Virus record (IMG/VR): IMGVR_UViG_3300023174_000364 | Location: 1-37,258 of that record | Origin: a virus | Length of the DNA stretch: 37,258 nucleotides | Direction: 5' to 3' (one strand) | Part shown: one piece after another, positions 63 through 32,749 of the stretch | Layout: the number at the start of each line of letters is the position of its first letter | Numbering within the stretch: the stretch's first letter is position 1 | The notes under the pieces: generated by a model | Database searches by the model: none | What the model was told of the DNA's origin: nothing | What the model saw: the letters and a program-made list of their open reading frames with translations, nothing else | Program-made: the position numbers and the translations under genes

Positions 63-145
63 GCGCCTATGGTGAAATAGGTAGACACAGGAGACTTAAA
101 ATCTCCCGCTTCGGCGTGCTGGTTCAAATCCGGCTAGGCGCACCA
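63..145 (+). tRNA. tRNA-Leu (anticodon UAA)
   Basis: The acceptor stem GCGCCTA (63-69) pairs with TAGGCGC (135-141), followed by A142 and an encoded CCA (143-145). The anticodon loop CTTAAAA gives anticodon UAA. A long variable arm built around CCGCTTCGGC marks a class II tRNA, as expected for leucine. It would read UUA, a codon frequent in this AT-rich genome. Confidence 0.96.
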
Positions 146-150
146 AATAC

Positions 151-225
151 GGGCTGATAGCTTAATGGTAAAGCAGGCGACTCATAATCGCTCGAGTGTG
201 AGTTCGATTCTCTCTCAGCCCACCA
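151..225 (+). tRNA. tRNA with CAU anticodon, probably tRNA-Ile2
   Basis: Acceptor stem GGGCTGA (151-157) pairs with TCAGCCC (215-221), then A222 and CCA (223-225). The anticodon loop CTCATAA gives CAU. The anticodon arm GGCGACTCATAATCGCT is what I recall of E. coli ileX tRNA-Ile2 and differs from elongator tRNA-Met. I therefore infer an isoleucine tRNA needing TilS lysidine modification to read AUA. The CCA abuts the stop codon of the convergent gene at 226 with no spacer. Confidence 0.9.
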
Positions 226-6499: not shown

Positions 6500-7386
6500 C
6501 CAAATCACTCAAACAGTCAGGTTGGAAAGTTGTAGGACTTGATTACAAAAAACACACATTAAATCCATATGTGGATATCATGCACTATGCAGATATTCGT
6601 AACCTTGATGAATTGAATGATTTGTTTTCTCGTATTCAATTTGATACAGTTTTTCATCTTGCTGGTAGAATTGAAGTTGGTCTTTCGTTTGAAGAACCAA
6701 CCGAATTCTATTCTGTAAACACTGGTGGTACCTGTAACATTTTAAATGCAATGGCAAACCATGGTGTGAAAAATATTGTTTATTCTTCAACTGCTAATGT
6801 ATATCAAGCATCAAATAAACCAATCAAAGAAATCAATGTTATCACCAATAATTCACCATATGGTAACAGTAAATATTTTGCAGAAAAATCAATCATTGCT
6901 TCTGGTTTGAATTATGTAATTTTTAGATATTTCAATTTGTCTGGTGCAGATGTTGATGGAGAATTTGGTGAAGAACACGATCCAGAAACACACTTGATTC
7001 CGAGGTTGATTGAAAATCTAAATAATTTTACAATTAACGGATCCAACTATAACACGCCCGATGGAACTTGTATTAGGGATTATGTGCATGTCGCAGATGT
7101 TGCAGAAGCGCATAACTTGGCTGCGAATTATTTAAAGTCCAACAAATCAATTATATTGAATCTTGGCACAGGCAAAGGCCACTCTATTTTAGAAATCGTA
7201 AACGAATTAGAAAAAATCACAGGCAATAAAATTAACTATACTTTCGGTGAAAGACGACCTGGTGATGCCGATACTTTAGTTGCCGATATTAGTCTTGCCG
7301 AACAAGTATTGCAATACCGACCTAAGCATGATATAATTTCTATCTTAACAACTGCTTATAAATGGTATAATAAAAATGACGAATAA
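6442..7386 (+). CDS. galE: NAD-dependent sugar epimerase, GalE-like
   Basis: An extended short-chain dehydrogenase/reductase of 314 residues with the UDP-glucose 4-epimerase layout. It has the NAD-binding ITGCAGYLGSH, the catalytic SSTANVY and YGNSK (YxxxK), and the GalE signatures FRYFNLSGAD, HLIPRL, CIRDYVHVADVAEAH and RRPGDAD. It should interconvert UDP-glucose and UDP-galactose or the N-acetyl forms. The start at 6442 is set by the Rossmann strand at residues 5-10, despite the 58-base overlap with the glycosyltransferase. It probably supplies donor sugar to that enzyme. Length is slightly below bacterial GalE (about 338). Confidence 0.92.
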   Translation: MEKRTALITGCAGYLGSHLAKSLKQSGWKVVGLDYKKHTLNPYVDIMHYADIRNLDELNDLFSRIQFDTVFHLAGRIEVGLSFEEPTEFYSVNTGGTCNILNAMANHGVKNIVYSSTANVYQASNKPIKEINVITNNSPYGNSKYFAEKSIIASGLNYVIFRYFNLSGADVDGEFGEEHDPETHLIPRLIENLNNFTINGSNYNTPDGTCIRDYVHVADVAEAHNLAANYLKSNKSIILNLGTGKGHSILEIVNELEKITGNKINYTFGERRPGDADTLVADISLAEQVLQYRPKHDIISILTTAYKWYNKNDE

Positions 7387-7954
7387 GAAAGACTTGGATT
7401 TAGATGTAAGTGCAACAGAGAAAATTGGTCTTGAGTTACTTAAAAATCATGTTCATTTTTTAACTGGTGATATTGAAGAAGAAAACATAGAAGCTGCAAT
7501 CAAGTGGATTGTTTATGAGAACCTTGTATGTGGTTCTAATCCAAAAATGTTAACCATGTATATCAATTCAACAGGTGGTGACTTAAATGCCGCCTTTGCT
7601 TTGATTGACACAATGAGACAATCAAATTGTCCCGTTCGTGTTATTGGTATGGGTTCAATTTGTTCGGCTGCGTTTATGATTTTTTCTTCTGGTTTCAAAG
7701 GTGAAAGATTTATCGCAAAGAATACAAGTATCATGTGTCACCAATATAGTGATTCATATGAAGGTAAACACCATGATATCAAGTCACACTTTAAAGAATC
7801 AGAATTAACAAACACAAGAATGATAGAAGTGTTGAAAGAAAATACTGGTTTGGACACCAGAACAATTAAAGCTAAGTTGTTGTGCCCAACTGATGTTTGG
7901 TTGACAGCAGATGAATTAATTGAGTTGGGTGTCGCTGACAATTTTTTAGAGTAG
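7376..7954 (+). CDS. clpP: ClpP-like serine protease
   Basis: A 192-residue ClpP-family peptidase. The strand MLTMYINSTGGDLNAAFALID matches the ClpP oligomer core. The nucleophile serine lies in GMGSICSAAF (S97), the histidine in IMCHQYS (H122), and D173 in PTDVWLTADE is the nearest candidate for the third residue. I could not prove it aligns exactly with the catalytic Asp. ClpP needs a Clp ATPase partner, and none is encoded here, so it would have to use host ClpX/ClpA, or work on capsid proteins alone. It overlaps galE by 11 bases. The phage tmRNA at 14620 makes a link to tagged-protein degradation worth testing. Confidence 0.9.
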   Translation: MTNKKDLDLDVSATEKIGLELLKNHVHFLTGDIEEENIEAAIKWIVYENLVCGSNPKMLTMYINSTGGDLNAAFALIDTMRQSNCPVRVIGMGSICSAAFMIFSSGFKGERFIAKNTSIMCHQYSDSYEGKHHDIKSHFKESELTNTRMIEVLKENTGLDTRTIKAKLLCPTDVWLTADELIELGVADNFLE

Positions 7955-13648: not shown

Positions 13649-13940
13649 TTTTATTGATACAGAAACAAATGAAGAATTTGAAGTCTTTATGAAAATTTCT
13701 GAGCGTGAAGAATTTCTAAAAGAAAATCCTCAAGTGCAACCAATTGTAACTGCACCCGCAATCATTGGTGGTATGGGAACATATCAAAAAGTACCAGATG
13801 GTTTCAAAGAAGTTTTAGCGAAGGTTGGTGAGAATCATCCTGATAGTAAATTGGGTAGAGAATACGGTAATAAAACAATTGCACAAGTGAAGGCTCGTGA
13901 CATTGTTGATAAGTATCGTAATAAAAGTAGAAACAGATGA
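13635..13940 (+). CDS. T4-like aquatic phage protein resembling FmdB without cysteines
   Basis: It starts with TTG at 13635, eight bases after GGAG. The product opens MPTYNFIDTETNEEFEVFMK, like the FmdB zinc-ribbon family, but the cysteine pairs of that family are absent, so no zinc site is expected. The C-terminal part (VPDGFKEVLAKVGENHPDSK, then a Lys/Arg-rich tail) is one I recall from T4-like cyanophage and pelagiphage proteins of unknown function. It overlaps the exonuclease gene by four bases (ATGA). Confidence 0.8.
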   Translation: MPTYNFIDTETNEEFEVFMKISEREEFLKENPQVQPIVTAPAIIGGMGTYQKVPDGFKEVLAKVGENHPDSKLGREYGNKTIAQVKARDIVDKYRNKSRNR

Positions 13941-14614
13941 CATTTAACTTTATAAAACTACCTGAATTAGATTTTGATTTAAAAACAGAGACAACCGAAG
14001 AAGGCAGACGATATGTAACACCAGAAGGACAAAAGTATCCTTCTGTTACTACTGTTTTGTCCTCTTACAATAAGAAAGCCATTTACGAATGGCGTCAGCG
14101 TGTTGGTAACGAAGAAGCAAATAAAATTGCAGGTCGTGCTTCTCGCCGTGGTACGCAATTGCATACCTTGTGTGAGAAATATATTCTTGGTGAATTAACC
14201 GAGATGAAAAGACAGTCACTAATGCCTTTGGATAAAATGATGTTTGGCCAATTGCGACCAATATTAGATGACCATGTTGGTGATGTATACTGCCTTGAAC
14301 AGGCATTGTATAGTGATAGTTTGAAATTGGCTGGTCGTGTTGACTTGATTGCTGAGTGGGATGGTGAGTTATCAGTTATTGACTTCAAATCTTCTACAAA
14401 GGAAAAGAAAGAAGAAAACATTCGTAATTACTTTATGCAATGTTCAGCGTATGCTGAGATGTTTGGAGAAATTACAAAACGACCAATTAATAAGATTGTG
14501 GTTGTAATAGCTACTGAAGAAGAAGTACCTCAGGTATTTGTGAAAGATAAGGAAGAGTATTTGCCTGAATTAAATCAATTCATTGATAAATACTGGAGTG
14601 ATATTGCTGTATGA
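13937..14614 (+). CDS. PD-(D/E)XK exonuclease
   Basis: A 225-residue RecB/MGME1-like nuclease. The motif series is visible: SVTTVLSSYNKKAIYEWRQR, RRGTQLHTLCEKYIL, then the catalytic core LAGRVDLIAEWDGELSVIDF with KSSTK (D in GRVDLIA, DxK in VIDFKSS), and QCSAYAEMFGEIT. Such enzymes degrade DNA ends in recombination or host genome breakdown. It is coupled to the gene before. GATAAATAC within its last codons (14585-14593) matches the T4-type late promoter core and could serve the tmRNA gene that follows. Confidence 0.92.
   Translation: MTFNFIKLPELDFDLKTETTEEGRRYVTPEGQKYPSVTTVLSSYNKKAIYEWRQRVGNEEANKIAGRASRRGTQLHTLCEKYILGELTEMKRQSLMPLDKMMFGQLRPILDDHVGDVYCLEQALYSDSLKLAGRVDLIAEWDGELSVIDFKSSTKEKKEENIRNYFMQCSAYAEMFGEITKRPINKIVVVIATEEEVPQVFVKDKEEYLPELNQFIDKYWSDIAV
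14585..14593 (+). promoter_or_regulatory. possible late promoter element upstream of tmRNA
   Basis: GATAAATAC matches the NATAAATA core I recall for late promoters of T4-like cyanophages and resembles T4 TATAAATA. A start about six bases downstream would sit roughly 20 bases before the tmRNA acceptor piece. The element also encodes the residues DKY of the exonuclease, so chance is a real alternative. Confidence 0.3.
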
Positions 14615-14619
14615 AGCAA

Positions 14620-14906
14620 AGAGAAAAGTGTTCTGGACGAGGGTGCGAATCCCTCCAGGTCCACCAAAAACATATTGTGCGTGGTAGTAATCTTCTTAAA
14701 AGAAGTAGGCGAGTCCATTAGTATAGTATGTTTTTGCTGGGCCTGCATAGTTTCGACAGGGCAAAGAGTAACAGAGTGGACAGCACGACACAGATAGTCG
14801 TAAAAAGTAAAACAAAAATAAATGCAAATGACGAAAGTTACCGCATTGCTGCCTAATTAAGGCACTAGGGTTTCGGTTGGTTCACCTCGTAACAGAAGAA
14901 CCAACC
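14620..14906 (+). ncRNA. ssrA: circularly permuted (two-piece) tmRNA
   Basis: The tRNA-like 3' part comes first: T stem GAGGG/CCCTC (14639-14643, 14651-14655), acceptor strand CAGGTCC (14656-14662), A14663 and CCA (14664-14666). After a removable spacer, the 5' part begins GGGCCTG (14739-14745), which pairs with that acceptor strand over seven positions with one G-U. The tmRNA signature TTTCGACAGGG follows. CAGGGC (14757-14762) pairs with GTTCTG (14630-14635) as helix P2a. The tag frame GCA (14824) to TAA (14854-14856) encodes ANDESYRIAA, and the stop lies in the TGCC/GGCA hairpin loop. A 9-pair hairpin (14875-14883 with 14898-14906) closes the gene. It rescues stalled ribosomes and tags nascent proteins. 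The T loop reads TGCGAAT instead of TTCGAAT. Exact 5' and 3' ends are inferred. Confidence 0.93.
14667..14738 (+). other. intervening segment of permuted tmRNA precursor
   Basis: This spacer joins the CCA end to the 5' end of the coding piece and should be cut out during maturation. AAAAACATA (14667-14675) pairs with TATGTTTTT (14727-14735), extending the acceptor stem into a hairpin. CTTCT and AGAAG make a second small stem around 14692-14705. Confidence 0.8.
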
Positions 14907-18736: not shown

Positions 18737-18950
18737 AGACGAAATGGCAAAATTTGCCAGGTCCATAGAAGAATATGTTGCAAATACGAACTACAATTAC
18801 ATTGAAGCGATTGTAGAGTATTGTAAAACAACTGGACTTGAAATTGAAGTGGCAGCTACATTAATCAATTCTAATCTAAAATCAAAGATTGAGAATGTAG
18901 CATTAGACAATAACATGCTAAAAGAAAAAGGTGCTCGGTTACCAATATGA
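18726..18950 (+). CDS. 33: gp33 late transcription coactivator
   Basis: The 74-residue product matches the short gp33 of T4-like aquatic phages: NYIEAIVEYCKTTGLEIEVA, then a basic/acidic helix and the terminal KGARLPI. In T4, gp33 bridges RNA polymerase and the sliding clamp at late promoters with sigma gp55. T4 gp33 is longer (112 residues) with a disordered N-terminus missing here. It overlaps both neighbours and lies directly before gene 59 as expected. Confidence 0.88.
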   Translation: MPTKDEMAKFARSIEEYVANTNYNYIEAIVEYCKTTGLEIEVAATLINSNLKSKIENVALDNNMLKEKGARLPI

Positions 18951-19552
18951 TATCAGGTTATGAAGCTTTTGGACTTTATCAGTCTCTAAAACTTCACTTC
19001 ACAACCGACTCATACGATTACTTCAAATACAATGGCAAAACTAGTATTAGTATTACATCTTTTGAAAATCGTAAAGACAAATATCACTTCTACAAATTGT
19101 CTCGTAAGTATACCAACAAAGATGATTTAATAAATTTCATTGTTGCTAATTTTGTAGAAGATGAAAAGTCTTGGGTCGGTACTTTGTTGCAAGAAGAGGC
19201 CGATATGAATTTCCGTAAACGACAAAAAGTAATCCAGTCACTATCGTATACCTTTGAAAATGATTGTAAAGTTATTTTTGAAGATTGTAAAGTTAATCCC
19301 AATCAGGCATTAATTACAGATGGTGACTATCCATTACTATTGACCAAGACTTTGAGAAAAGAAATACAAATTGAATCTTTGTGTTTACTTAATCAGATTC
19401 TTGGATTCTTCCCAATGTGGACAAGTAAAATCAATGACACTATTCGATGGCCTGCATATAGGCAGAAGTGTATCAAGTATGCCACTTTTCTACCACAAGA
19501 TAGTGTAAAATACAAGTTGATTTTGAAAAAGGTGTTGAATGAAAATCTCTAA
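18947..19552 (+). CDS. 59: gp59 helicase loader
   Basis: The 201-residue helical protein matches T4 gp59 (217 residues): GYEAFGLYQSLKLHF, ENRKDKYHFYKLSRKY, LINFIVANFVEDEKSWVGTL and the C-terminal YRQKCIKYATFLPQDSVKYK. gp59 binds forks and gp32-coated DNA and loads the gp41 helicase. It overlaps gene 33 by four bases and the nucleotidase gene by 14, part of the replication/late transcription block. Confidence 0.92.
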   Translation: MISGYEAFGLYQSLKLHFTTDSYDYFKYNGKTSISITSFENRKDKYHFYKLSRKYTNKDDLINFIVANFVEDEKSWVGTLLQEEADMNFRKRQKVIQSLSYTFENDCKVIFEDCKVNPNQALITDGDYPLLLTKTLRKEIQIESLCLLNQILGFFPMWTSKINDTIRWPAYRQKCIKYATFLPQDSVKYKLILKKVLNENL

Positions 19553-20113: not shown

Positions 20114-20995
20114 ATGAGTTCATTTGCTAATCTTAAGCGCAATCGTAGTGATATCAAAACACTAACCAGAGCGATTGAAGCAACCTCTCAACCTGCTGAA
20201 GCAGGATCCAAAGATGACACACGTTTCTGGCAACCAGAAGTAGACAAAGCAGGTAATGGCATGGCCGTTATTCGTTTTCTTCCTGCTCCTGCGGTTGATG
20301 GTGACGATGCTCTTCCATGGGTTCGCACATTCAGTCATGGTTTTCAAGGACCTGGTGGTTGGTTCATTGATAACTGTCTCACAACTCTTAATGAGAAGTG
20401 TCCAGTTTGTGAACATAACAATACACTATGGAATTCTGGCATCGAAGCCAATAAAGATATTGCTCGTAAACAAAAACGCAAGTTGACTTACGTTGCAAAC
20501 ATTCTGGTCGTATCAGACCCAAGTAATCCATCTAACGAAGGTGAAATTCGTTTATACAAATTCGGTAAGAAAATCTTTGATAAGATTACTGAAGCAATGA
20601 ATCCTGAGTTTGCGGATGAAACACCTGTTAACCCATTTGACTTGTGGGAAGGTGCTAACTTCAAGTTGAAGATTCGTAATGTTGAAGGTTATCGCAATTA
20701 TGATAAATCTGAATTCGCCACACCAGGTGCATTACTTGATGGTGATGATGTTAAACTTGAAGAATTGTGGAAGAAAGAATATTCTCTGAAAGATTTTACA
20801 GAGAAGAAACAATTCAAACCTTATGACCAACTCAAGTCTCGCCTTGATAAAGTTCTAGGTTTTGAAGGTGCAGCACCTGTATCTAAGGCAGATACTGCCG
20901 TAGTAAGCAAGTTTAATGATGATGATATTTCTGTGATTGATAAACCAGTTACAGAAGATGAAGATTTGGATTACTTCAAATCACTTGCACAATAA
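20114..20995 (+). CDS. 32: gp32 single-stranded DNA-binding protein
   Basis: A 293-residue gp32 (T4: 301). The basic LAST-type motif LKRNRS is near the N-terminus. The zinc site is H75, C88, C96, C99 in HGFQGPGGWFIDNC and NEKCPVCEHN, the same spacing as in T4 gp32. The OB-fold core contains VANILVVSDPSNPSNEGEIR. The C-terminus is acidic (DEDLDYFKSLAQ), as needed to bind partner proteins. It coats single-stranded DNA and organises replication and recombination. It has a good AAGGAAAA site and a strong terminator directly after it. Confidence 0.97.
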   Translation: MSSFANLKRNRSDIKTLTRAIEATSQPAEAGSKDDTRFWQPEVDKAGNGMAVIRFLPAPAVDGDDALPWVRTFSHGFQGPGGWFIDNCLTTLNEKCPVCEHNNTLWNSGIEANKDIARKQKRKLTYVANILVVSDPSNPSNEGEIRLYKFGKKIFDKITEAMNPEFADETPVNPFDLWEGANFKLKIRNVEGYRNYDKSEFATPGALLDGDDVKLEELWKKEYSLKDFTEKKQFKPYDQLKSRLDKVLGFEGAAPVSKADTAVVSKFNDDDISVIDKPVTEDEDLDYFKSLAQ

Positions 20996-23126: not shown

Positions 23127-23321
23127 TTATCTCTTAGCTAGTTTTTGTTGTTTTAATTTTTCGTTTTCTTCTTCCAAATACTGAATCAATAATCCTAAAT
23201 AAATTTCTCTTTCCCACGGTAACATATTTTCTAATTCAGTCAAACTATATTTGTGGTGTTGCATAAGTGCAAAGTTTGTGTGATAATAGTTACCTAAATT
23301 TTCGTGAGAAAGAGCTATATG
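23127..23321 (-). CDS. 51: gp51-like baseplate hub assembly protein, probably made by -1 frameshift from gene 26
   Basis: The minus-strand frame -1 to gene 26 encodes HIALSHENLGNYYHTNFALM, then QHHKYSLTELENMLPWEREI and a coiled-coil end YLEEENEKLKQQKLAKR. This is the pattern I recall as the conserved C-terminal part of gp51 in T4-like phages, a factor for baseplate hub assembly. No start codon precedes the conserved part; the only ATG (23264) lies inside it without a Shine-Dalgarno, leaving 45 residues. The frame joins gene 26 exactly at the slippery run at 23321-23327, giving a 64-residue extension. The stop is two bases before the next ATG. Confidence 0.75.
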   Translation of the reverse strand, partial: HIALSHENLGNYYHTNFALMQHHKYSLTELENMLPWEREIYLGLLIQYLEEENEKLKQQKLAKR

Positions 23322-24049
23322 AAAAAACTTTGAAGTCCTTCAACAGGAATCTTTTCTTCATATTTACATTTCTTACACTTAAATTCAATTGTGTGTTTTA
23401 TTTTAGGTGCAGTTTCAAAGAAATTTTGTATTTTTTCTAAATCTTTTTGTTGCATACTATCAATAAATTCAATAATTTCTTCTCTTGGAGTATCTTTTGC
23501 TTTGTAAATATTATCTGCATCATACACATAGTCAACACAATTAATCAGTAACTCCATTAAAATTTCATCTTCTGATTTGCCATCTAATTTTGTAATCATT
23601 TCAAAAGTTGGATACTTCATAACAATGCCCATCTTCTCACTTAACTTTATAGTGTTATTGTGACTTTCACCTTTTGTAGGCTTTATGTCTAATAGTTTTA
23701 TCTCAAATTTCTCAAGTGAATCACATTGCTTATCTTCACCCTTTTCATCTTTGACTATATTATTACATTTGTACCTAAGTTCAACAATTTCATTAACAGA
23801 CCTTGCTCTTAAATTTAAGAACAAATATTCCAAATCAAATGTTGGAAGGTCATCAACATTGATATCATCCACAACACAATTTTTCAGTATTTGTTTTACA
23901 ACATTAACTGTTTCATCATTATTGTCTTCTCCTTGAGATATCATCAGTAAAAGTTTTTGTTCTTTTACAAGAAAAGGTCTAAACCTAATTTTCTTTCCAG
24001 ATGATATAAGTGTCAATTCATAAATTGGTACATCTAATTTTGGTAACAT
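23315..24049 (-). CDS. 26: gp26 baseplate hub assembly chaperone
   Basis: A 244-residue protein with the gp26 signature at the N-terminus: LPKLDVPIYELTLISSGKKI, then RFRPFLVKEQKLLLMISQ. T4 gp26 is about 208 residues and is needed to assemble the baseplate hub without staying in the virion. A CxxC pair (CKKC) near the C-terminus may bind zinc. It ends SFFI before TAG at 23317-23315, three bases after the slippery TTTTTTC, so a fraction of ribosomes may read on into gp51. The gene lies in the minus-strand hub operon. Confidence 0.9.
   Translation of the reverse strand: MLPKLDVPIYELTLISSGKKIRFRPFLVKEQKLLLMISQGEDNNDETVNVVKQILKNCVVDDINVDDLPTFDLEYLFLNLRARSVNEIVELRYKCNNIVKDEKGEDKQCDSLEKFEIKLLDIKPTKGESHNNTIKLSEKMGIVMKYPTFEMITKLDGKSEDEILMELLINCVDYVYDADNIYKAKDTPREEIIEFIDSMQQKDLEKIQNFFETAPKIKHTIEFKCKKCKYEEKIPVEGLQSFFI
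23321..23340 (-). promoter_or_regulatory. -1 ribosomal frameshift site in gene 26
   Basis: On the minus strand the zero-frame codons AGT TTT TTC contain the heptamer T TTT TTC (23327-23321), a perfect X XXY YYZ slippery site. AAGGA (about 23340-23336) lies eight bases upstream, an SD-like stimulator like the one in E. coli dnaX. A -1 slip enters the gp51 frame at CAT (23321-23319). I see no strong downstream hairpin. Confidence 0.65.
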
Positions 24050-24070
24050 AATAACCTCGCTTTTAAATAA

Positions 24071-24829
24071 TTAAAGTGCTTTTCCAAAAGGCAACAATCT
24101 TGAACCTGCAGAACCAAACAATGCAGCTGCTGCAGCACCAACGTCATAAGTGCCTTCGTAAATTGTTTTATATTTTTGATATGCAAATTGAACTTGTAGT
24201 CTATGAAATGAATCATCAGCCCAACTAACTGCTTGTGATGCAACTCCAATTGGAAATGCATCAATCAATTCTACTGCATAAATTTGTTTAATGAAATCAT
24301 CATATTGAATGATTTTAACATTAGTCATATACCTTGATTTATTTCCTTTTGGAAATCTCAAGTTATTTGTATCTGTTGGGTGAATTGCTTCCATCCAACG
24401 GTCGAATAATTTTCTCTCATAAAATTCATTGGTACATAAAAATGTCAATGATGTGTCACCGTATTGTGTTTGATAAGGAATTTTGAATGTTGGGCCATAA
24501 ATTTTAGCATCGGCTGTTACTAATGTTTTACCAGGCAATTCGGCAGATTCACATTGTAAGGCCAAGTTTCTTGATAGTGATGCATTAGATGTTCTGGAAT
24601 AACCATTTGAATCTTCTTGAGCACCAGGTCTATCTAAAGCAGAATTGATTGCATCCGATACATTACCAAAAATTGAATTTGGAAAATTTAAAATCTTTTC
24701 AAGAATAGAATTTCCAACAAAAGAATTGATGTATGGAGGAATAGGAAGAATAACTTCAAATCGTGAAGTCTTTGCTGGGCCATCTTTAGACCTAATATTA
24801 GATAGAAATAAATTTGGTGAAAACGACAT
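24071..24829 (-). CDS. 54: tail-tube-like baseplate protein, gp54 (tube initiator) candidate
   Basis: A 252-residue protein with the tail-tube fold pattern: ALQCESAELPGKTLVTADAK, then YGPTFKIPYQTQYGDTSLTF, FYERKLFDRWMEAIHPTDTN, and YAVELIDAFPIGVASQAVSW with HRLQVQFAYQKY. This is the strand order of gp19/gp54 tube proteins. Its place beside hub genes and near gp48 suggests gp54, the tube initiator that sits on the hub, although T4 gp54 is longer (320). A minor tube or hub protein is the alternative. It overlaps the next upstream gene by one base. Confidence 0.75.
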   Translation of the reverse strand: MSFSPNLFLSNIRSKDGPAKTSRFEVILPIPPYINSFVGNSILEKILNFPNSIFGNVSDAINSALDRPGAQEDSNGYSRTSNASLSRNLALQCESAELPGKTLVTADAKIYGPTFKIPYQTQYGDTSLTFLCTNEFYERKLFDRWMEAIHPTDTNNLRFPKGNKSRYMTNVKIIQYDDFIKQIYAVELIDAFPIGVASQAVSWADDSFHRLQVQFAYQKYKTIYEGTYDVGAAAAALFGSAGSRLLPFGKAL

Positions 24830-25410
24830 TAGAATTTTTTCCTTGAGTCTGCGTAAACTTTACTTGTGCTGGCACCAACAAATGATTCTACAGGTAACAA
24901 TGCAGCAATATCCCATTCATCCGCAGATATTTCTAAAAAACGTGATTCAATTTGAGTAAATAAATATCTTTTGATACAAGGTGTTGCCTCAAATATTTTT
25001 GATGCGGCCGACAAATATCTGTAGTTAATTTTTAGTTTTGTTTTATCATCATAAGTATTATTACTAGCCGTGTCACTCAATTTATCCAATAAAATCATCC
25101 GATGTTTAGGATGAATGTAGTGTAGATTTAATCCTAAGAAACCGTCAGGGTATCTTTCAATTGGAATTACCAATGGAAAACGGTCATAATAAGGCATCGT
25201 GTCTTTTGTCTTTGGGTCATAGAAATAGAAATACATTCTTCCAATCATTGAATGATTTTTAAGTCTATTCCTGTCGTTCATCAAAGCAGTTGAAGTTGGT
25301 TTCAAGTCATTGACTTTTGCTCGTAACCATGTCCTAGATGCATTGGTTCTAGGAGTCAAACCTTCTTTTGCGAGTGACGTTTTAATTCTATCAAGTAATT
25401 TTGCCATCAT
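24829..25410 (-). CDS. conserved structural-region protein (193 aa)
   Basis: A basic 193-residue protein starting MMAKLLDRIKTSLAKEGLTP. The most distinctive part is YDRFPLVIPIERYPDGFLGL followed by NLHYIHPKHRMILLDKL, which I recall from T4-like aquatic phages next to gene 4 and baseplate genes. No function is known to me; a virion or baseplate assembly role follows from context. GATAAATAG (25419-25411, minus strand) sits directly before its start, between it and gene 4. Confidence 0.78.
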   Translation of the reverse strand: MMAKLLDRIKTSLAKEGLTPRTNASRTWLRAKVNDLKPTSTALMNDRNRLKNHSMIGRMYFYFYDPKTKDTMPYYDRFPLVIPIERYPDGFLGLNLHYIHPKHRMILLDKLSDTASNNTYDDKTKLKINYRYLSAASKIFEATPCIKRYLFTQIESRFLEISADEWDIAALLPVESFVGASTSKVYADSRKKF

Positions 25411-25419
25411 CTATTTATC

Positions 25420-25854
25420 TTAAATGCCAAGGTCTTTTTCAGTTAACACTTTGAATTGCCAACCATGTTCTTTACAGAATAAATCGGCAGCTCTCCATTT
25501 TTCCTGATTAACGGCATATGTTGCCGACTCTTGGATGAACCGTGCCGTTTTACGTCTCCGCACTGGTTGTTTTGTTTGTGACTCTGGCTTTACTTCCAGC
25601 ACCATTGTTGTCTTCTGACCATCTTTCCGTTGGATCCTAACGATGAAGTCTGGAAAATAACGATGCACTTTTTGGTCGATAGGAGACTTATAAGGTATGG
25701 CAATTTCCTCAGATGCCCACCAAATAACTTTTGGGTTATCATCTAACCACTTCATTACCTTAAATTCCCATGAAGAACGGTAAACAATATTACCTGCTTT
25801 TCCATTATACTTTTTTGGGTTTTTAGGATTGAAAATTCCTTTTTTATAAGACAT
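25420..25854 (-). CDS. 4: gp4 head completion protein
   Basis: A 144-residue protein (T4 gp4 about 150). It has the pattern KAGNIVYRSSWEFKVMKWLD, then WWASEEIAIPYKSP, HRYFPDFIVRIQRKDG and TTMVLEVKPESQTKQP, which is the gp4 family and also a PD-(D/E)XK nuclease-like layout (PDF...EVK). T4 gp4 acts at the end of head filling, before tail joining. It is the first gene of the minus-strand structural operon. It lacks a close Shine-Dalgarno: AGGAG lies 17 bases upstream of the ATG at 25854. Confidence 0.93.
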   Translation of the reverse strand: MSYKKGIFNPKNPKKYNGKAGNIVYRSSWEFKVMKWLDDNPKVIWWASEEIAIPYKSPIDQKVHRYFPDFIVRIQRKDGQKTTMVLEVKPESQTKQPVRRRKTARFIQESATYAVNQEKWRAADLFCKEHGWQFKVLTEKDLGI

Positions 25855-25868
25855 AAATACTATCTATA
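25852..25868. promoter_or_regulatory. divergent T4-type late promoter elements
   Basis: CATAAATA (25852-25859) on the plus strand and TATAGATA (25868-25861) on the minus strand each differ from T4 TATAAATA at one position. They lie in the 31-base gap between divergent gp4 and gp48 and could start both structural operons. On the plus side a 26-base leader with AGGA (25877-25880) reaches gp48; on the minus side the gp4 ATG is only six bases away. Confidence 0.5.
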
Positions 25869-25885
25869 ACTCCTATAGGACAATC

Positions 25886-27184
25886 ATGGCACTTTTTGGA
25901 TTTTCAGACATATCATTCAATAAGAATGAAAGAGGACCTCTTTCCAGTCTTTATAAAAATGAGTTCAGCGCTAATACATATAGATACCCATTAGATATTG
26001 GTAGTGCTGATAAAGGTCACTATATGATGATTTATATCAGACAACAAAAAGATAGTGCATTTAAATCTGCAACTATGGATGAATCAGTTTTAAACGCTAA
26101 TGGCAGTATTACAGAAAAAGATGTTGTAAATATTTCCCAAGGCAAATCAGCAGTTTCTTTTGCAAATGAACTTATATCAAAAGTTAACGGTGGACTAAAT
26201 CAAATAAATCAATCTACTAATGGTGTTTTAAGTGGATTGACTTCCTCATTATCTAAAGGTATTGGTGATGCAGCCAAAGGTTTAGAGGGTGGAATTAATA
26301 ATCTTTTTGGTCAAGCGACCACATCTTTCACTGGCGATTCTGGTGCAACAAAAGCAATTATTGATACTCGTCTTAAAAATATTACTGATAAAAGATTTAG
26401 TATAACAAAGAAAACCGAGTTAACTACCGATGCTATTGCATTGTATATGCCAGATACATTAAATTATGTTTACTCACAGGGATATAGTGATTTAGCACCA
26501 GGAAAATCAGCACTAGCGCAAGCAATAGTTGCTGGAGCAGCAGGTTATGAAGCATATCAAAAGAATACTGGCATTGATGCATTAACAAATAGTGGAAGTC
26601 AAATTTTAAAATCTTTGGCCGCATTAGCAATAACCAAAGGCGCAGAGAAAAAATTAAATCCCGAAATTGCAGCTCTAGGTGCTTTTGCTGCCACTGGTGT
26701 TGTTTTAAACCCAATGATGGAATTATTATACACAGGCCAAAGTCAATTTAGAACATTTCAATTTGATTTTTTCTTTTATCCTAGAGATGAAAGAGAAGCT
26801 CTTGAGGTACAAAAAATAATTGAAAGGTTAAGATTTCATCAAGCTCCAGAAATATCTGGAACATTTAAAGATGGATTTTTAATTCCTCCATCTGAATTTG
26901 ATATTCGGTTTTATTATAATGGTGCTCAAAATCCAAATATACCACCAATCGGAACTTGTGTTTTAGATAACATAAACATCAATTATGCACCAAATGGTTT
27001 TAGTGCATATGAAGTTCCAGAAGAAACTTTTCCCTCTTTAGGTAGAACAGGTATGCCTGTTGCGATTCAATTAACTTTAGGATTCAAAGAAGTTAGTTAT
27101 CTCACAAAAGATGATTTCAATTCTGGATCAAGTGCTAATTTAGGTCCTATGGAATATAGAGGCGGAGATGGTGGATTTGCTTGA
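25886..27184 (+). CDS. 48: gp48 baseplate tail tube cap
   Basis: A 432-residue protein (T4 gp48 364). The C-terminal part carries the gp48 signature: LNPMMELLYTGQSQFRTFQF, DFFFYPRDEREALEVQKIIE, RLRFHQAPEI, FLIPPSEFDIRF and TCVLDNININYAPNGFSAYE. The longer N-terminal half is Ser/Gly/Asn-rich with helical segments (QIINQSTNG-type turns and LTSSLSKGIGDAAKGLEGGI) and probably explains the extra length. gp48 caps the hub and starts tail tube growth with gp54. It heads the plus-strand structural operon. Confidence 0.9.
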   Translation: MALFGFSDISFNKNERGPLSSLYKNEFSANTYRYPLDIGSADKGHYMMIYIRQQKDSAFKSATMDESVLNANGSITEKDVVNISQGKSAVSFANELISKVNGGLNQINQSTNGVLSGLTSSLSKGIGDAAKGLEGGINNLFGQATTSFTGDSGATKAIIDTRLKNITDKRFSITKKTELTTDAIALYMPDTLNYVYSQGYSDLAPGKSALAQAIVAGAAGYEAYQKNTGIDALTNSGSQILKSLAALAITKGAEKKLNPEIAALGAFAATGVVLNPMMELLYTGQSQFRTFQFDFFFYPRDEREALEVQKIIERLRFHQAPEISGTFKDGFLIPPSEFDIRFYYNGAQNPNIPPIGTCVLDNININYAPNGFSAYEVPEETFPSLGRTGMPVAIQLTLGFKEVSYLTKDDFNSGSSANLGPMEYRGGDGGFA

Positions 27185-27216
27185 TTATTAAAAAACACTA
27201 AGGATCTTAAAAATTT

Positions 27217-27867
27217 ATGGCAAAATATTTTAATTACTTTCCAAAAACATTTTATAGTAATGATAATACATCTACTGGTTTAGATTCTGTAACAAACATT
27301 ATTGCGAGGTTTGGATTTGAACAATCGTTGAAAAATAATTCATCGGCATTTTACAAGTACCAAATACAAGAATCAGATACACCAGAAATCATTGCACACA
27401 AATATTATGGTAGCGCAGAAAGACATTGGATTGTTCTATTGTTTAATGATATCATTGACCCACAATTTGATTGGCCATTAAAATATGATATTTTAATTAA
27501 TTTTGTGGATGCGAAATATACTGCAAATGGTGCGGCAAACACAACAGTTCAAACTGGACTTGCATGGGCAATGAGTACCAATAATATTCAAGCATATTAT
27601 AAAATTGTAACTAAGACAGATATTGATAATGTAACTCTAATTGAAAAAATTCAAGTTGATGCAAACACATATGCAAATGTATCTACATCATCAACAACAA
27701 TTACATTACAAAGTGGTGATGTAATTACTCAAGCCGTTACTAAAGAAAAGAAAACTTATTATGATTATGAAATGGAAGAAAATGAATCTAAAAGAGAGAT
27801 TACATTGATAAAAAGTGATTTTGTTAAAGAGATTGAAAAAGAATTTAAAAAAGTGATTAAATCATAA
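27217..27867 (+). CDS. 53: gp53 baseplate wedge protein
   Basis: A 216-residue protein (T4 gp53 196). The core matches gp53: FYKYQIQESDTPEIIAHKYY, GSAERHWIVLLFNDIIDPQF and DWPLKYDILINF, a LysM-like fold that joins wedges in the baseplate. The C-terminal 60 residues are a charged helix (EMEENESKREITLIKSDFVK). It overlaps gene 27 by one base, a normal order in this phage group. Confidence 0.93.
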   Translation: MAKYFNYFPKTFYSNDNTSTGLDSVTNIIARFGFEQSLKNNSSAFYKYQIQESDTPEIIAHKYYGSAERHWIVLLFNDIIDPQFDWPLKYDILINFVDAKYTANGAANTTVQTGLAWAMSTNNIQAYYKIVTKTDIDNVTLIEKIQVDANTYANVSTSSTTITLQSGDVITQAVTKEKKTYYDYEMEENESKREITLIKSDFVKEIEKEFKKVIKS

Positions 27868-29195
27868 TGGACATTAATAATTCAAGCCAATTTAAAGTAA
27901 ATGAATTGGTGATTGTTACCAAAGCAGGTAAGATTGATATAACTGCAATATATGAAGAAATCAATATTTTTGATTCGCTTCTTATGCCTGTTATGAGTGG
28001 TAATGTATTAGTTAGAGATGCAATTGGATTATCAGCTGCACTACTCTTCGATGGGTCTGAGTCTTTACTGATGGATATATCAAAATCAGTTAATTCAGAT
28101 GTTGCATCGTTTAAGAAAGCTTTCAGGATTTATAAACAATCAGATAGAAATATTATTAATCCGAATAGTGAAGCATATGTTTTGCATTTTGTTTCAGATG
28201 AATTATTTTATTCAGACCAACAAAAAATTAATCAATCGTATGAAGAATCTTATTCTGAAATAATTAAAAAAATACTTTCTGATTATTTGAAAGTTTCAAA
28301 AAATAATTTAAATGGAATTTATGCCGACTCTTCCGGTATAAGAAATATTGTTATACCTAATTTATCACCAATTGATGCAATTCAATGGTGTACCAAAAGA
28401 GCTTTGGATGTTGAACAATCTCCAAATTATATGTTTTTTCAAAATATTACAGGATATAATTTTGTTTCACTTTCAGAATTATTAACTCAACAAGAAGTTT
28501 TAGATATTAAATTTCAAACTAAAAATTTATCAGGAACTTCTCCATTAGAAGAAATAAGTGGTGCAAAAAGTTTTGAAGTTATTTCAATGACTAATTTAAT
28601 TGAGAGAACTCGTTCAGGTGTTAATGCAGGAACTTTTATTGGGTTTGATCCAATTACAAGAACAATTTCTTCAAGGCAAATCGGGTATTCTGACCATTAC
28701 AAAGACATGAAGCATGGTAATGATACACCAAATTTTACACCAATTTTAAATAGAGATGGTAAAGAAAATTCACAAAATTTCAATTCAAGAAAATCATTAT
28801 CTATTTTTGGAACAGCTAGAAAACTTAGTGAATATATTAAAAGAAATGATCCAACTTCTATTTCAACAAACGAAACAACCGAAGATTTTATATTCCATAG
28901 AAAAGCAATTATTAATAATTTAATGTCTAAAAGATTGAAAATTGTTATGCCTGGTAACTTTCAATTATCTTCCGGTTTCAATGTTAATGTTGATGCTCCA
29001 ATTTTTGGCCAAAAAGAAAAAAAGAGTGATGAAGAAGATAAGAGTTTAAGTGGTAAGTATATAATCATTGCTTCAAGACATGTTATTGGTTTTGAAAAAC
29101 ACGAAACAATTATTGAAGTTGCATCATCATCATCAGGAAATGATTTTATACCATCAAGCAATTTTGATGAAGTCCAAGAAATAATGGAATATTGA
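27867..29195 (+). CDS. 27: gp27-like baseplate hub protein
   Basis: A 442-residue hub protein (T4 gp27 391). It starts with a beta-rich domain (FKVNELVIVTKAGKIDITAI, then YEEINIFDSLLMPVMSGNVL), has a helix-rich centre (SYEESYSEIIKKILSDYL) with SPIDAIQWCTKRALD, and ends with the typical hub strand SGKYIIIASRHVIGFEKHET. gp27 forms the trimeric ring under the tube that holds the gp5 spike. The gene directly precedes gene 5, as expected for the hub pair. Confidence 0.9.
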   Translation: MDINNSSQFKVNELVIVTKAGKIDITAIYEEINIFDSLLMPVMSGNVLVRDAIGLSAALLFDGSESLLMDISKSVNSDVASFKKAFRIYKQSDRNIINPNSEAYVLHFVSDELFYSDQQKINQSYEESYSEIIKKILSDYLKVSKNNLNGIYADSSGIRNIVIPNLSPIDAIQWCTKRALDVEQSPNYMFFQNITGYNFVSLSELLTQQEVLDIKFQTKNLSGTSPLEEISGAKSFEVISMTNLIERTRSGVNAGTFIGFDPITRTISSRQIGYSDHYKDMKHGNDTPNFTPILNRDGKENSQNFNSRKSLSIFGTARKLSEYIKRNDPTSISTNETTEDFIFHRKAIINNLMSKRLKIVMPGNFQLSSGFNVNVDAPIFGQKEKKSDEEDKSLSGKYIIIASRHVIGFEKHETIIEVASSSSGNDFIPSSNFDEVQEIMEY

Positions 29196-29196
29196 T

Positions 29197-30273
29197 ATGC
29201 AAAGAAAAACTGATTCGAATGATTTTGCTGGCAAAGCAGGATTTATTTGGTGGGTTGGTGTTGTTGAGGACAGACAAGACCCAATCAAATTAGGTAGGTG
29301 TAAAGTTAGATGCGTTGGTTGGCACTCAGAAAATAAAATGGATTTGCCAACTGAAAATCTTCCTTGGGCAACTCCTATTATGCCATTGAATAATGCACAC
29401 ACATATACGCCAAAAGAAGGTGATATGGTTATGGGATTTTTTGCAGATGGGGACAATGCACAAGAGCCAATTATGTTTGGTGTGTTTCCTGGTATTCCTT
29501 TAAAAGCGGCCAATTCACAAGAAGCATTTTGTGATCCAAGAACTACAACTGAATTAGCTTCTGCACCGAAAACACCAGATAGTAAAGAATATAATACTGA
29601 TGGTTCTGGTATAGTAATCACAGAAAAAAGTCAAGCTGATAGTTATCCCAAATTTTTAGATGAACCGACAACTTCTCGTATTGCAAGAAATGATCCTGAA
29701 TCAATAACAGAAACTTTTATACAAGAACGAAAAGATAATCTTGTAACTGGAGTTGAAACTGTAAGTGATTCATGGGATGAACCAGAAACACTTTATAATA
29801 CAGTTTATCCATATAATAATGTTGTTGAGACTGAATCTGGTCATCTATTAGAATTTGATGATACTCCAGAAGCAGAAAGAATTCATTTAGCACACAGAAA
29901 TGGTTCTTTTCAAGAATGGTTTCCAGATGGCGATAAAGTAGAGAAAGTTACTAAAGATAATTATCAGATTGTAATGGGTGATGACAAAGTTTACATTATG
30001 GGTAAATGTCAAGTCACAATTCAAGGTGATGCAGAATTATATGTTCAAGGTAACTTTGATATGAATGTAGATGGAACTTGTAATATTCGTTCTACTGGAA
30101 ATATGAAACTTAATGCACCACTAATAGATTTGAATGATGGTACAAACGGCGCAGCTCGTATAGGTGATACGGCTGATACTGGAGACCAAGGAACAGGCGG
30201 ACCTAATGATACTAATCTTGCAGGAACTAACATAATTGAAACCGGTTCTGGAACAGTTGTTATCGGTGGATGA
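29197..30273 (+). CDS. 5: gp5 baseplate central spike, lacking the lysozyme domain
   Basis: A 358-residue protein (T4 gp5 575). Residues 15-100 form the OB fold (FIWWVGVVEDRQDPIKLGRC, then WHSENKMDLP, LPWATPIMPL and GDMVMGFFADGDNAQEPIMF). The C-terminal part is the beta-helix spike with repeating short strands (MGKCQVTIQGDAELYVQGNF, NVDGTCNIRSTGNMKLNAP) ending in a Gly-rich tip. The lysozyme domain that T4 gp5 carries between them is missing; the middle is a linker. The activity is probably supplied by the minus-strand protein at 21037-23124. Confidence 0.92.
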   Translation: MQRKTDSNDFAGKAGFIWWVGVVEDRQDPIKLGRCKVRCVGWHSENKMDLPTENLPWATPIMPLNNAHTYTPKEGDMVMGFFADGDNAQEPIMFGVFPGIPLKAANSQEAFCDPRTTTELASAPKTPDSKEYNTDGSGIVITEKSQADSYPKFLDEPTTSRIARNDPESITETFIQERKDNLVTGVETVSDSWDEPETLYNTVYPYNNVVETESGHLLEFDDTPEAERIHLAHRNGSFQEWFPDGDKVEKVTKDNYQIVMGDDKVYIMGKCQVTIQGDAELYVQGNFDMNVDGTCNIRSTGNMKLNAPLIDLNDGTNGAARIGDTADTGDQGTGGPNDTNLAGTNIIETGSGTVVIGG

Positions 30274-30285
30274 GATAAATAGAAA

Positions 30286-30690
30286 ATGGCAACAGTAAAT
30301 ATAGATTCCACACGAAATTTTGTAGACTTGGATTTGAATTTTGCAATTCATCCGATACGCAAAGATGTAAACACATATAAAGCAGAGTATGCAGTAATCA
30401 ATTCAGTCAAAAATTTGGTTTTGACTAATCACTATGAGAAGCCTTTTAGACCACAAGTTGGAAGTAATATTCGCCGACTTTTATTTGAAAATATAGATTC
30501 CATCATTGCTGCACAAATAGAACGAGCAGTTACCGAAACTATAGAAAATTTTGAGCCAAGAGTTAGTGTATCAAGTATTACTGCAATACCAGATCCAGAC
30601 AAAAATAGATATAATTTAAGATTAGAATTTTTTGTAATTAATCAAACATCACCAATTACAATAAATTTCTTTTTAGAAAGAATTAGATAA
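30286..30690 (+). CDS. 25: gp25 baseplate wedge protein
   Basis: A 134-residue protein (T4 gp25 132) with the family pattern DLDLNFAIHPIRKDV, VINSVKNLVLTNHYEKPFRP and SNIRRLLFENIDS, and the conserved EPR in IENFEPRVSVSSI. It is the sheath-initiating wedge component shared by all contractile injection systems. GATAAATA (30274-30281) lies four bases before its ATG; as a promoter it would give almost no leader, so I do not count it. Confidence 0.96.
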   Translation: MATVNIDSTRNFVDLDLNFAIHPIRKDVNTYKAEYAVINSVKNLVLTNHYEKPFRPQVGSNIRRLLFENIDSIIAAQIERAVTETIENFEPRVSVSSITAIPDPDKNRYNLRLEFFVINQTSPITINFFLERIR

Positions 30691-30691
30691 T

Positions 30692-32749
30692 ATGGCAGAC
30701 CGCTTAAGAGTAACAGAACTTGATTTTGATACAATCAAATCAAATTTAAAAACATTTTTAAATCAACAATCTTCTTTCACAGATTATGATTTTGAAGGGT
30801 CAGGGTTAAGCGTATTGCTTGATATTTTGGCATATAACACACATTATAATGCCTACTATTTAAACATGGTTGCCAATGAGTCTTTTTTAGATACCGCATT
30901 ACTCCGTGATTCAGTAGTTTCTCACGCAAAGAGTTTGAATTATGTGCCACACTCAATGAAGGCACCAATTGCAACAATTAACTTTACTGCCGAATCCACA
31001 AATGCTACAACTTCAATATTAACGATTCCTTCAGGATATTCTTTTCTTTCAAATAAAATTGATGGTAAATCTTATAACTTTGTTGTATTACAAGAAGTAA
31101 CGGCAACGAAAGCAAATAGTTCTTTCTATTTTGAGAATTTAGACATTTATGAAGGTCAATTGATTACATATAGTTTTGCACACAATCAGGCCGCAAATCC
31201 AAAACAAACATTTACGTTACCCAATGCAAACATAGACACCACTACAATTAGAGTGGGTGTGTCTCCTTCTTCGGTTAATACAAGTATTAGTGTTTACACA
31301 AACGTAACTGATATTTCAGATGTTACAACAACATCCGAAGTTTATTACCTACAAGAAAATAAAGGTGGAAAATACCAAATTTATTTTGGTAACGGTATTG
31401 TAGGCAAAGCTTTGCCTGATGGTGCAGTAGTTACTGTATCATATCTATTAACAAACGGAACTTCAGCAAACAAAGCAAATAACTTTGTGGCGGCTTTAAC
31501 TTTATCAGATTCATTAAACGAAACACTTACTAACTTTACAGTTACTCCTGTTTCTGCTGCATCTGGTGGTTCTGAACGTGAAGGTGTTGATGATATTAAA
31601 TTTGGTGCTGCTGCACAATTCACAACACAAAATCGTTTAATTACCACTAATGATTATCAAGCATTTTTAAAGAGAAGCTATCCAGCATTAGATTCTCTAT
31701 CCGTTTGGGGTGGTGAAGAAGAAACTGTGCCTGTTTATGGAACAGTTTATGTATCATTGAAACCAAAAACAAATTACTATATTTCCGAGACTGAAAAACA
31801 AAGAATCATTGATGACTTAATCAAACCAAAAGCAATTGTTGCTGTTAATACCGTTATTCGTGACCCCGAGTATTTGTATTTGTTGGTTGAGAGTTATGTG
31901 CAATACAATAAAACAAAAACAACTCAAACTGCCGAAGCAATTAAAACGTCAATTAGAAATTCTATTTTGTTATATAATGAAACTTATTTGAATAAATTTG
32001 GTGCAACAATGGTTCTGTCTAGGATGCAAGATGCGGTTGATTCAGTTGACTTAAATGCAATCGTTGGTTCTGAAATGACATTAAGATTGCAAAAACGATT
32101 TGAACCTAGTTTAGGTGTGTCATCAACTTATGCGATTAATTTTAATGCCGAATTGCATAGAGGTACTGTAAGTAATAAAATGACTTCCACACAATTTACT
32201 GTGTATGATAGTAATGGTGTTATTAGAACGGCACAAATTGAAGAAATACCAGAATCATATACTGGAGTTTCATCTATTGAAGTTACAAATGGTGGTTCTG
32301 GATATACAACAACACCAACAATAACAATTGCAGGTGATGGTTCTGGTGCAACTGCAATACCAATTATTGTAAATGGAAAAATACAAAGTATTGAAATCTT
32401 GACCCGTGGCTCAGATTATAGTCGTGCAACGGCAACTATAAGTGGTGGTAATGGTTATGGTGCAACTTGTTCCGTTTTGTTAGATGCAAAATATGGAACA
32501 TTAAGAACAGTTTATTTTAATGAAATGGCTGAAAGACAAGTTATTGATTCTACTGCAGGAACAATTAATTATTCCACTGGTTTGGTTATGTTAAATGATT
32601 TGACAGTTTTGACAAACCTTTCTAATGATGGGTTAATTAGATTAACGATTGAATCAGAAAAAGGAATTATTTCTTCTTATAGAAATAACATTATCACAAT
32701 TGATGGAGATGATTCTTCAGCAATTTCAACTGAATTAGTTACAACTTAA
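30692..32749 (+). CDS. 6: gp6 baseplate wedge protein
   Basis: A 685-residue protein (T4 gp6 660). The N-terminus has the gp6/gpJ pattern LDFDTIKSNLKTFLNQQ, GSGLSVLLDILAYNTHYNAY, YLNMVANESFLDTALLRDSV and YVPHSMKAP. Two gp6 form the wedge clamp that makes the inner baseplate ring. Around residues 525-600 an inserted beta-rich module appears, with NGGSGYTTTPTITIAGDGSG and ISGGNGYGATCSV repeats, like those in the next gene. It overlaps that gene by one base. Confidence 0.93.
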   Translation: MADRLRVTELDFDTIKSNLKTFLNQQSSFTDYDFEGSGLSVLLDILAYNTHYNAYYLNMVANESFLDTALLRDSVVSHAKSLNYVPHSMKAPIATINFTAESTNATTSILTIPSGYSFLSNKIDGKSYNFVVLQEVTATKANSSFYFENLDIYEGQLITYSFAHNQAANPKQTFTLPNANIDTTTIRVGVSPSSVNTSISVYTNVTDISDVTTTSEVYYLQENKGGKYQIYFGNGIVGKALPDGAVVTVSYLLTNGTSANKANNFVAALTLSDSLNETLTNFTVTPVSAASGGSEREGVDDIKFGAAAQFTTQNRLITTNDYQAFLKRSYPALDSLSVWGGEEETVPVYGTVYVSLKPKTNYYISETEKQRIIDDLIKPKAIVAVNTVIRDPEYLYLLVESYVQYNKTKTTQTAEAIKTSIRNSILLYNETYLNKFGATMVLSRMQDAVDSVDLNAIVGSEMTLRLQKRFEPSLGVSSTYAINFNAELHRGTVSNKMTSTQFTVYDSNGVIRTAQIEEIPESYTGVSSIEVTNGGSGYTTTPTITIAGDGSGATAIPIIVNGKIQSIEILTRGSDYSRATATISGGNGYGATCSVLLDAKYGTLRTVYFNEMAERQVIDSTAGTINYSTGLVMLNDLTVLTNLSNDGLIRLTIESEKGIISSYRNNIITIDGDDSSAISTELVTT

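Follow-up and report, generated by a model that had tools for sequence, protein, structure and literature searches.

A circularly permuted tmRNA with a coupled A18/G55 elbow and a RIAA tag in a T4-like phage of aquatic bacteria

The stretch of DNA analyzed here (the window) is the 37,258-base virus record IMGVR_UViG_3300023174_000364 of IMG/VR, a fragment of a T4-like myovirus that is presented as a virus of aquatic bacteria. At 14605-14906, on the + strand, it holds a complete circularly permuted (two-piece) transfer-messenger RNA (tmRNA) gene encoding the tag ANDESYRIAA, and the comparisons below make it probable that this is a working tmRNA that relies on the SmpB of the host and helps to rescue ribosomes late in infection. 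ARAGORN finds a permuted tmRNA with this tag; the Rfam models RF04321 (tmRNA_permuted; 124.4 bits, E 4e-24) and RF01850 (beta_tmRNA; 97.1 bits, the best model of its clan) both match above their curated cut-offs of 47 and 84 bits, respectively; and the precursor fold has a z of -5.38, with 0 of 100 shuffles equally good. Chance origin of the match is excluded. A first-pass annotation, made from the letters alone, had placed a complete permuted tmRNA with its own tag on this phage contig at 14620-14906 and had proposed a covariance-model search as a check; that search upholds it, and the span stands apart from its 5' edge, which now lies at about 14605.

The order of the gene is permuted, since the acceptor part with its CCA stands before the 5' part. 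The 3' (acceptor) piece (14605-14666, 5' end approximate; all parts lie on the + strand) is covered by RF04321 and RF01850 and comprises a P2a strand, the T arm, the acceptor 3' strand and the encoded CCA, and relatives conserve TGCTGTATGAAGC...TTCTGGAC within it. Its T arm (14639-14655) has the stem GAGGG/CCCTC and the loop UGCGAAU, with G55 at 14645, and its acceptor 3' strand, CAGGTCC followed by ACCA (14656-14666), has U70 at 14660. The 72-base spacer (14667-14738), predicted to be cut from the precursor, has ends that pair (AAAACAUA...UAUGUUUU) and lengthen the acceptor stem; of 203 phage spacers, 192 have ends that pair over 6 bp or more, versus 78 when the arms are shuffled. The 5' (messenger) piece (14739-14906, 3' end approximate) contains the acceptor 5' strand, the D region, the pseudoknot region, the tag and a closing hairpin. 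Positions 14739-14757 hold the acceptor 5' strand GGGCCTG (14739-14745, with G3 at 14741) and the D region CATAGTTTCGAC (A18 at 14749, G19 at 14750); the tag frame ANDESYRIAA, open from the resume codon, with small or hydrophobic residues at its end and closed by a UAA stop, occupies 14824-14856, and the closing hairpin GGTTGGTTCACCTCGTAACAGAAGAACCAACC spans 14875-14906. The two acceptor strands, GGGCCUG and CAGGUCC, pair 7/7, as the annotation had seen, with a G3:U70 wobble (G14741:U14660) in the stem. In the unguided minimum-energy fold, the precursor forms the T arm, the seven-pair acceptor stem lengthened by spacer-end pairing, and the P2a helix that had likewise been described. The tag stop had been put within a hairpin loop; the hairpin is there (GCCU/AGGC, 14851-14863), but in the centroid fold the UAA sits at its junction.

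A feature that departs from the usual form is the T loop, where the canonical UUC (U54, U55, C56) is replaced by UGC, the G having already been flagged by the annotation as standing where TPsiC is expected. Comparison indicates that this G55 is not a defect; it is coupled to A18 and is the alphaproteobacterial state. Among distinct phage tmRNA sequences, U55 goes with GG at D-loop positions 18-19 in 102 permuted and 21 standard genes, and G55 goes with AG before TTTCGAC in 96 permuted and 7 standard genes; nearly all remaining phage tmRNAs have the same D-loop dinucleotide with one extra base after it. The same 18/55 coupling appeared in a phage scan selected by T loop alone, with the D loop left free. 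Because G18 pairs with U55 and G19 with C56 in the usual tRNA elbow (PMC7912444), these data show, at the level of comparison, that the two sides of the 18-55 contact were replaced in concert. The elbow state switched six times on the tree of the linked exonuclease, at least four of them on supported branches, and position 18 changed together with 55 at every switch. The coupled positions sit on separate mature molecules, 18 on the messenger piece and 55 on the acceptor piece, an indication that the phage RNA is assembled from its own two pieces.

The cellular distribution of the two elbow states places the window elbow more precisely. All 134 tmRNAs with a readable D loop in a beta/gamma cellular sample have U55 and GG, and G55 is the state of cellular tmRNAs of the alphaproteobacterial type, which show AG in every case where the D region was read. 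Since these also lack U55 and show the same A18 coupling, UUC is usual for tmRNA and not defining. G55 as a phage-only novelty is ruled out, because alphaproteobacterial genomes carry it and because a 2005 paper had recorded G55 for Caulobacter and GG for the mitochondrion of Reclinomonas (PMC1168896). A G55 T-arm match in Burkholderiales (G352, L366; 1 in 399 genomes) was discarded, its T stem being unpaired. The tRNA-Leu(UAA) and tRNA-Met(CAU) genes of the window (63-225) have ordinary TTC T loops, and the G55 change is therefore confined to the tmRNA. For the rest of the molecule RF01850 is the best model, and body and tag DNA match the cellular betaproteobacterial sequences (L336-L361); the elbow is A18/G55 in place of the betaproteobacterial G18-U55, and since 0 of 26 cellular members have A18/G55, we file the window tmRNA as a beta-like variant and not as a plain member. 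The window T loop and T stem are not copies of alphaproteobacterial ones. On these comparisons it is an alphaproteobacterial elbow on a betaproteobacterial-type body, a combination that arose through convergence or because short stretches were exchanged. The A18-G55 pair has no report in the literature searched, in which subscription papers were not covered.

Conservation was read from a same-locus set of 17 sequences, the window and its closest exonuclease relatives, not chosen for pairing. The acceptor stem is paired in 119 of 119 cells across four different stems, with compensatory changes (CG/GC at pairs 4 and 5, TA/AT at pair 6), a G3:U70 that is constant in 17/17, a T stem paired 5/5 in all 17, and an 8-9 bp run in the closing hairpin in 17/17. 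In a larger set, G3:U70, the alanine identity pair, is present in 154/154 phage tmRNAs. Of the 80 relatives of the neighboring exonuclease gene, 66 have a tmRNA within the fetched stretch, and over 200 permuted phage tmRNAs were seen in this analysis. By this comparative measure the tmRNA locus is under selection, and gene form, folding, piece pairing, the alanine identity pair, the open tag frame and conservation can all be read from sequence and comparison. The resemblance of body and tag to cellular betaproteobacterial permuted tmRNAs is what would be expected of a passenger, that is, a tmRNA gene acquired by chance from a host and now in decay. We regard this as highly improbable, given the selection evident in the compensatory stem changes, the invariant G3:U70 and the coupled elbow switches, the promoter-like motifs of its own, and the presence of a tmRNA in so many of the exonuclease relatives; in its simple form the idea is refuted by the compensatory changes. 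The annotation had also called a full tmRNA copy in a phage unusual, which overstates the rarity in view of these relatives and of a published survey (PMC9004378).

Two further observations concern related loci. One contig (L138:1351-1845, - strand) carries a tandem of two acceptor and two 5' pieces, G55 being present in one set and U55 in the other, which suggests an intermediate of recombination or a duplicate in decay. Xanthomonas phages X1 and Rb1 carry unannotated permuted tmRNAs over the RF04321 cut-off (L002 and L003); the tmRNA of Xanthomonas itself is of the standard form.

The tag can be traced to an ordinary cellular one. Cellular betaproteobacterial-type permuted tmRNAs mostly encode ANDESYALAA, and the tag region of the window is identical over 22 bases of DNA to the start of that tag. 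ALAA is written GCA TTA GCA GCC and RIAA is written CGC ATT GCN GCC, so that one base gained before GCATT and one lost after it turn ALAA into RIAA with the frame kept; the tags ANDSQFALAA (L140) and ANDSQFRIAA (L141) differ by the same paired indel. ANDESYRIAA has no match in 84,980 cellular species genomes, and the annotation's view of the RIAA end as unusual is thereby confirmed. Based on the paired indel from ANDESYALAA and the absence from cellular genomes, comparison identifies ANDESYRIAA as a phage allele of the ordinary tag; the mimicry of the SspB-binding ANDENY that had been suggested for its start is not needed, as ANDESY is the ordinary start of cellular betaproteobacterial permuted tmRNA tags. 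Across 232 distinct phage permuted tmRNAs, ALAA ends the tag in 154 and RIAA takes its place in 18, nearly all end in AA, and the plan ANDxxx...AA is kept. Besides the window, 18 viral contigs encode ANDESYRIAA itself; it is combined with either elbow type and with several different acceptor stems, and tag and tRNA-like part therefore move separately. The tag does not name the host: it lacks a cellular match, and a scan for related tags gave mostly standard-form tmRNAs, that of Candidatus Methylopumilus included.

A possible partner of the tag is a phage ClpP (Clp protease proteolytic subunit) encoded in the same window (7376-7954, + strand; PF00574, 110.7 bits, cut-off 20.2). In alignments with ClpPs of solved structure, its Ser, His and Asp coincide with the catalytic residues, and its gene is not placed among capsid genes. 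The RIAA end might serve for retagging: by altering the choice of protease or the rate of its action, it would spare tagged proteins, slow their breakdown or direct them to the phage ClpP. The recurrence of RIAA among phage permuted tmRNAs, the absence of ANDESYRIAA from cellular genomes and the kept catalytic residues of ClpP are consistent with this idea, tag end and phage ClpP each being unusual; on the other hand, the tag keeps its N-terminal part and its final AA unchanged, RLAA tags are common in Alphaproteobacteria and presumably degraded, and RIAA occurs on both elbow types, spreading as a module in the way a neutral allele would. We therefore hold retagging to be possible but unlikely. 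ClpP relatives occur in 79 viral contigs, and for 13 of these the fetched stretch also includes a permuted tmRNA; PF00574 matches in 14 of 38 tmRNA records, and among the 20 ClpP records that reach 50 kb or more, 12 contain a permuted tmRNA. An association of ClpP with tmRNA was considered, and no enrichment is claimed, because tmRNA is common in this phage group (the 66 of 80 above) and PF00574 also catches capsid proteases.

Upstream, at 14585-14592 (+ strand), lies GATAAATA, a T4-late-type promoter motif (NATAAATA) with a predicted transcription start near 14598; the late promoter of T4-like phages is TATAAATA. The motif is rare in the window, occurring at six places on both strands, several of them just before structural genes. 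Just upstream of phage tmRNAs, NATAAATA is present in 59 of 205, a sigma70-like site in 58 of 205 and both in 23, and control windows yield at most 5 and 7 of the two motifs, respectively. SmpB was found neither in the window nor in 14 other tmRNA-phage records, which are large but mostly incomplete, the window itself being a fragment; from these 15 records host SmpB is implied.

What follows is our inferred course of events, from the time of transcription through processing, charging, use of SmpB and degradation to the benefit. The precursor would probably be transcribed from the T4-late-type promoter, and pairing of its acceptor strands and of its spacer ends would give it a tRNA-like fold. 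The 72-base spacer would then be excised by the tRNA-processing enzymes of the host, leaving the acceptor and messenger pieces joined through the acceptor stem, P2a and an elbow formed by A18/G55 and G19-C56. Host alanyl-tRNA synthetase would charge the RNA via G3:U70, and host SmpB, with EF-Tu also from the host, would bring it to ribosomes stalled on broken mRNA. Translation would then continue along the tag frame, and the freed proteins would end in ANDESYRIAA, to be degraded by host ClpXP or ClpAP and possibly also by the phage ClpP. The benefit may be recovery of ribosomes late in infection, when nucleases are breaking mRNA.

Several points weigh against this account. The unselected pairing test is limited to the 17-sequence set, as some 5' acceptor strands of the larger set were picked by requiring at least 6/7 pairs; the sign test on supported branches of the exonuclease tree has 4 pairs (p 0.125), too few for significance; the promoter motif of the window lies inside the exonuclease coding sequence, where coding constraint is a confounder; and the absence of SmpB from the phage records carries the incompleteness already given. 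The gene might alternatively act as a competitor or inhibitor, its RNA occupying SmpB, EF-Tu or stalled ribosomes and so damping host trans-translation. The inhibitory RNA of phage DS6A (PMC11915505) provides a precedent, and other phage contigs contain tag-less tRNA-like tmRNA domains of 70-97 bases, with an acceptor, an AG D region, a G55 T arm and CCA (L381:995-1064; L404:420-489; L420:187-266, - strand; L440:6963-7059, - strand), that resemble it. The window gene, however, retains a full tag frame, resume region and closing hairpin, and phage tags keep a plan that an inhibitor would not need, which makes inhibition improbable here and leaves a working tmRNA as the preferred reading.

A wider proposal is that aquatic T4-like phages possess a partly self-contained tag-and-degrade circuit, with a tmRNA insulated by its own acceptor stem and swapped elbow, a phage-specific tag and a phage ClpP, and that the tmRNA locus is a modular cassette exchanging elbow, tag and spacer between phages. 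We offer this as speculation that is more apt to be wrong than right by a good measure. Insulation from host pieces was rejected as a general rule: the window stem would pair at only 4-5 of 7 positions with cellular betaproteobacterial pieces, but the range across phages is 3 to 7.

In relatives, the spacer itself can hold protein genes. Genes for proteins of 59-152 amino acids lie between the two pieces of phage permuted tmRNAs at L143:3313-3495 (+), L412:2268-2726 (-), L417:6881-7186 and L023:2964-3224 (-), and further ones at L073:9750-10010, L070:329-550, L014:1266-1463 and L084:436-615. Several have a ribosome-binding-like AAGGA just 3' of CCA, within the precursor-closing arm; among the proteins, one matches PF03692 and one PF14083 over cut-off, and one is HNH-like. 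The discarded spacer seems to serve as an mRNA or as a landing site. The literature searched, subscription papers not covered, contains no report on the spacer of permuted tmRNAs, including protein genes inside it.

The surrounding genes fit a T4-like phage, for which BLASTN against named phages gave just two matches, both weak and partial. The exonuclease gene (phrog_298; 13937-14614, + strand) upstream of the tmRNA is 90-97% identical in amino acids in the 15 closest relatives, and its end overlaps the tmRNA start by ~10 bases. Directly downstream lies a gene for a YfaZ-like outer-membrane protein (PF07437; 14932-15381), a neighbor that is kept in some relatives and replaced by other genes in others. 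The window also contains genes for the gp59 loader (18947-19552) and gp32 (20114-20995), and baseplate and tail genes at 23315-35358. A baseplate protein is closest to those of Melnitz, HTVC008M and Mosig (37-39% identity), and gp32 and the exonuclease are closest to cyanophages (47-58%).

These results explain an odd T loop by a coupled D-loop change on the other RNA piece. The coupling is comparative evidence for piece assembly and offers a simple double-mutant test of two-piece cohesion, and with a phage-only tag end and a phage ClpP at hand, the reason why phages carry tmRNA becomes open to test. The spacer protein genes represent a use of permuted tmRNA that is unreported in the literature searched.

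A tmRNA has been described in 402 of 18,146 phage genomes, with the two-piece form in 53 of 133 distinct tmRNA structures, 50 of these 53 from marine or aquatic phages (PMC9004378). Like the window, the Methylophilales phage Melnitz and the Pelagibacter phages HTVC008M and Mosig are T4-like aquatic phages with a permuted tmRNA and a tag frame (PMC9004378), and their tmRNAs share the A18/G55-type elbow. Melnitz, however, is reported to have a glutamine riboswitch upstream, where the window has none at the Rfam cut-off, and its tmRNA was described as alphaproteobacterial-type (PMC9004378), whereas the window body is betaproteobacterial in type; the ARAGORN tags of this group (ANDNYVPVDYALAA, GEDNFALAA, ANFNEYALAA) also differ from the window tag. 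The cellular betaproteobacterial permuted tmRNA (RF01850; 26 genomes around Advenella) has the body, P2a and closing hairpin of the window, but all 26 have U55 with G18G19, their acceptor stems are GGGGACG or GGGGGCG in contrast to GGGCCTG, and their tags end in LAA instead of RIAA. The alphaproteobacterial form (RF01849) shares G55 and A18 with the window, and its tags often end in RLAA, with Arg before the last three residues as in RIAA; most members, unlike the window, have the T loop GGCGGTA or GGCAGTA, the T stem CCGGG/CCCGG and a tag starting ANDN. A coupled elbow switch on a betaproteobacterial-type body and a phage-only RIAA tag were not found in the literature searched. Permuted phage tmRNA was thus already known; the coupled elbow on a beta-type body, the RIAA tag and the spacer protein genes appear, by these comparisons, to be new.
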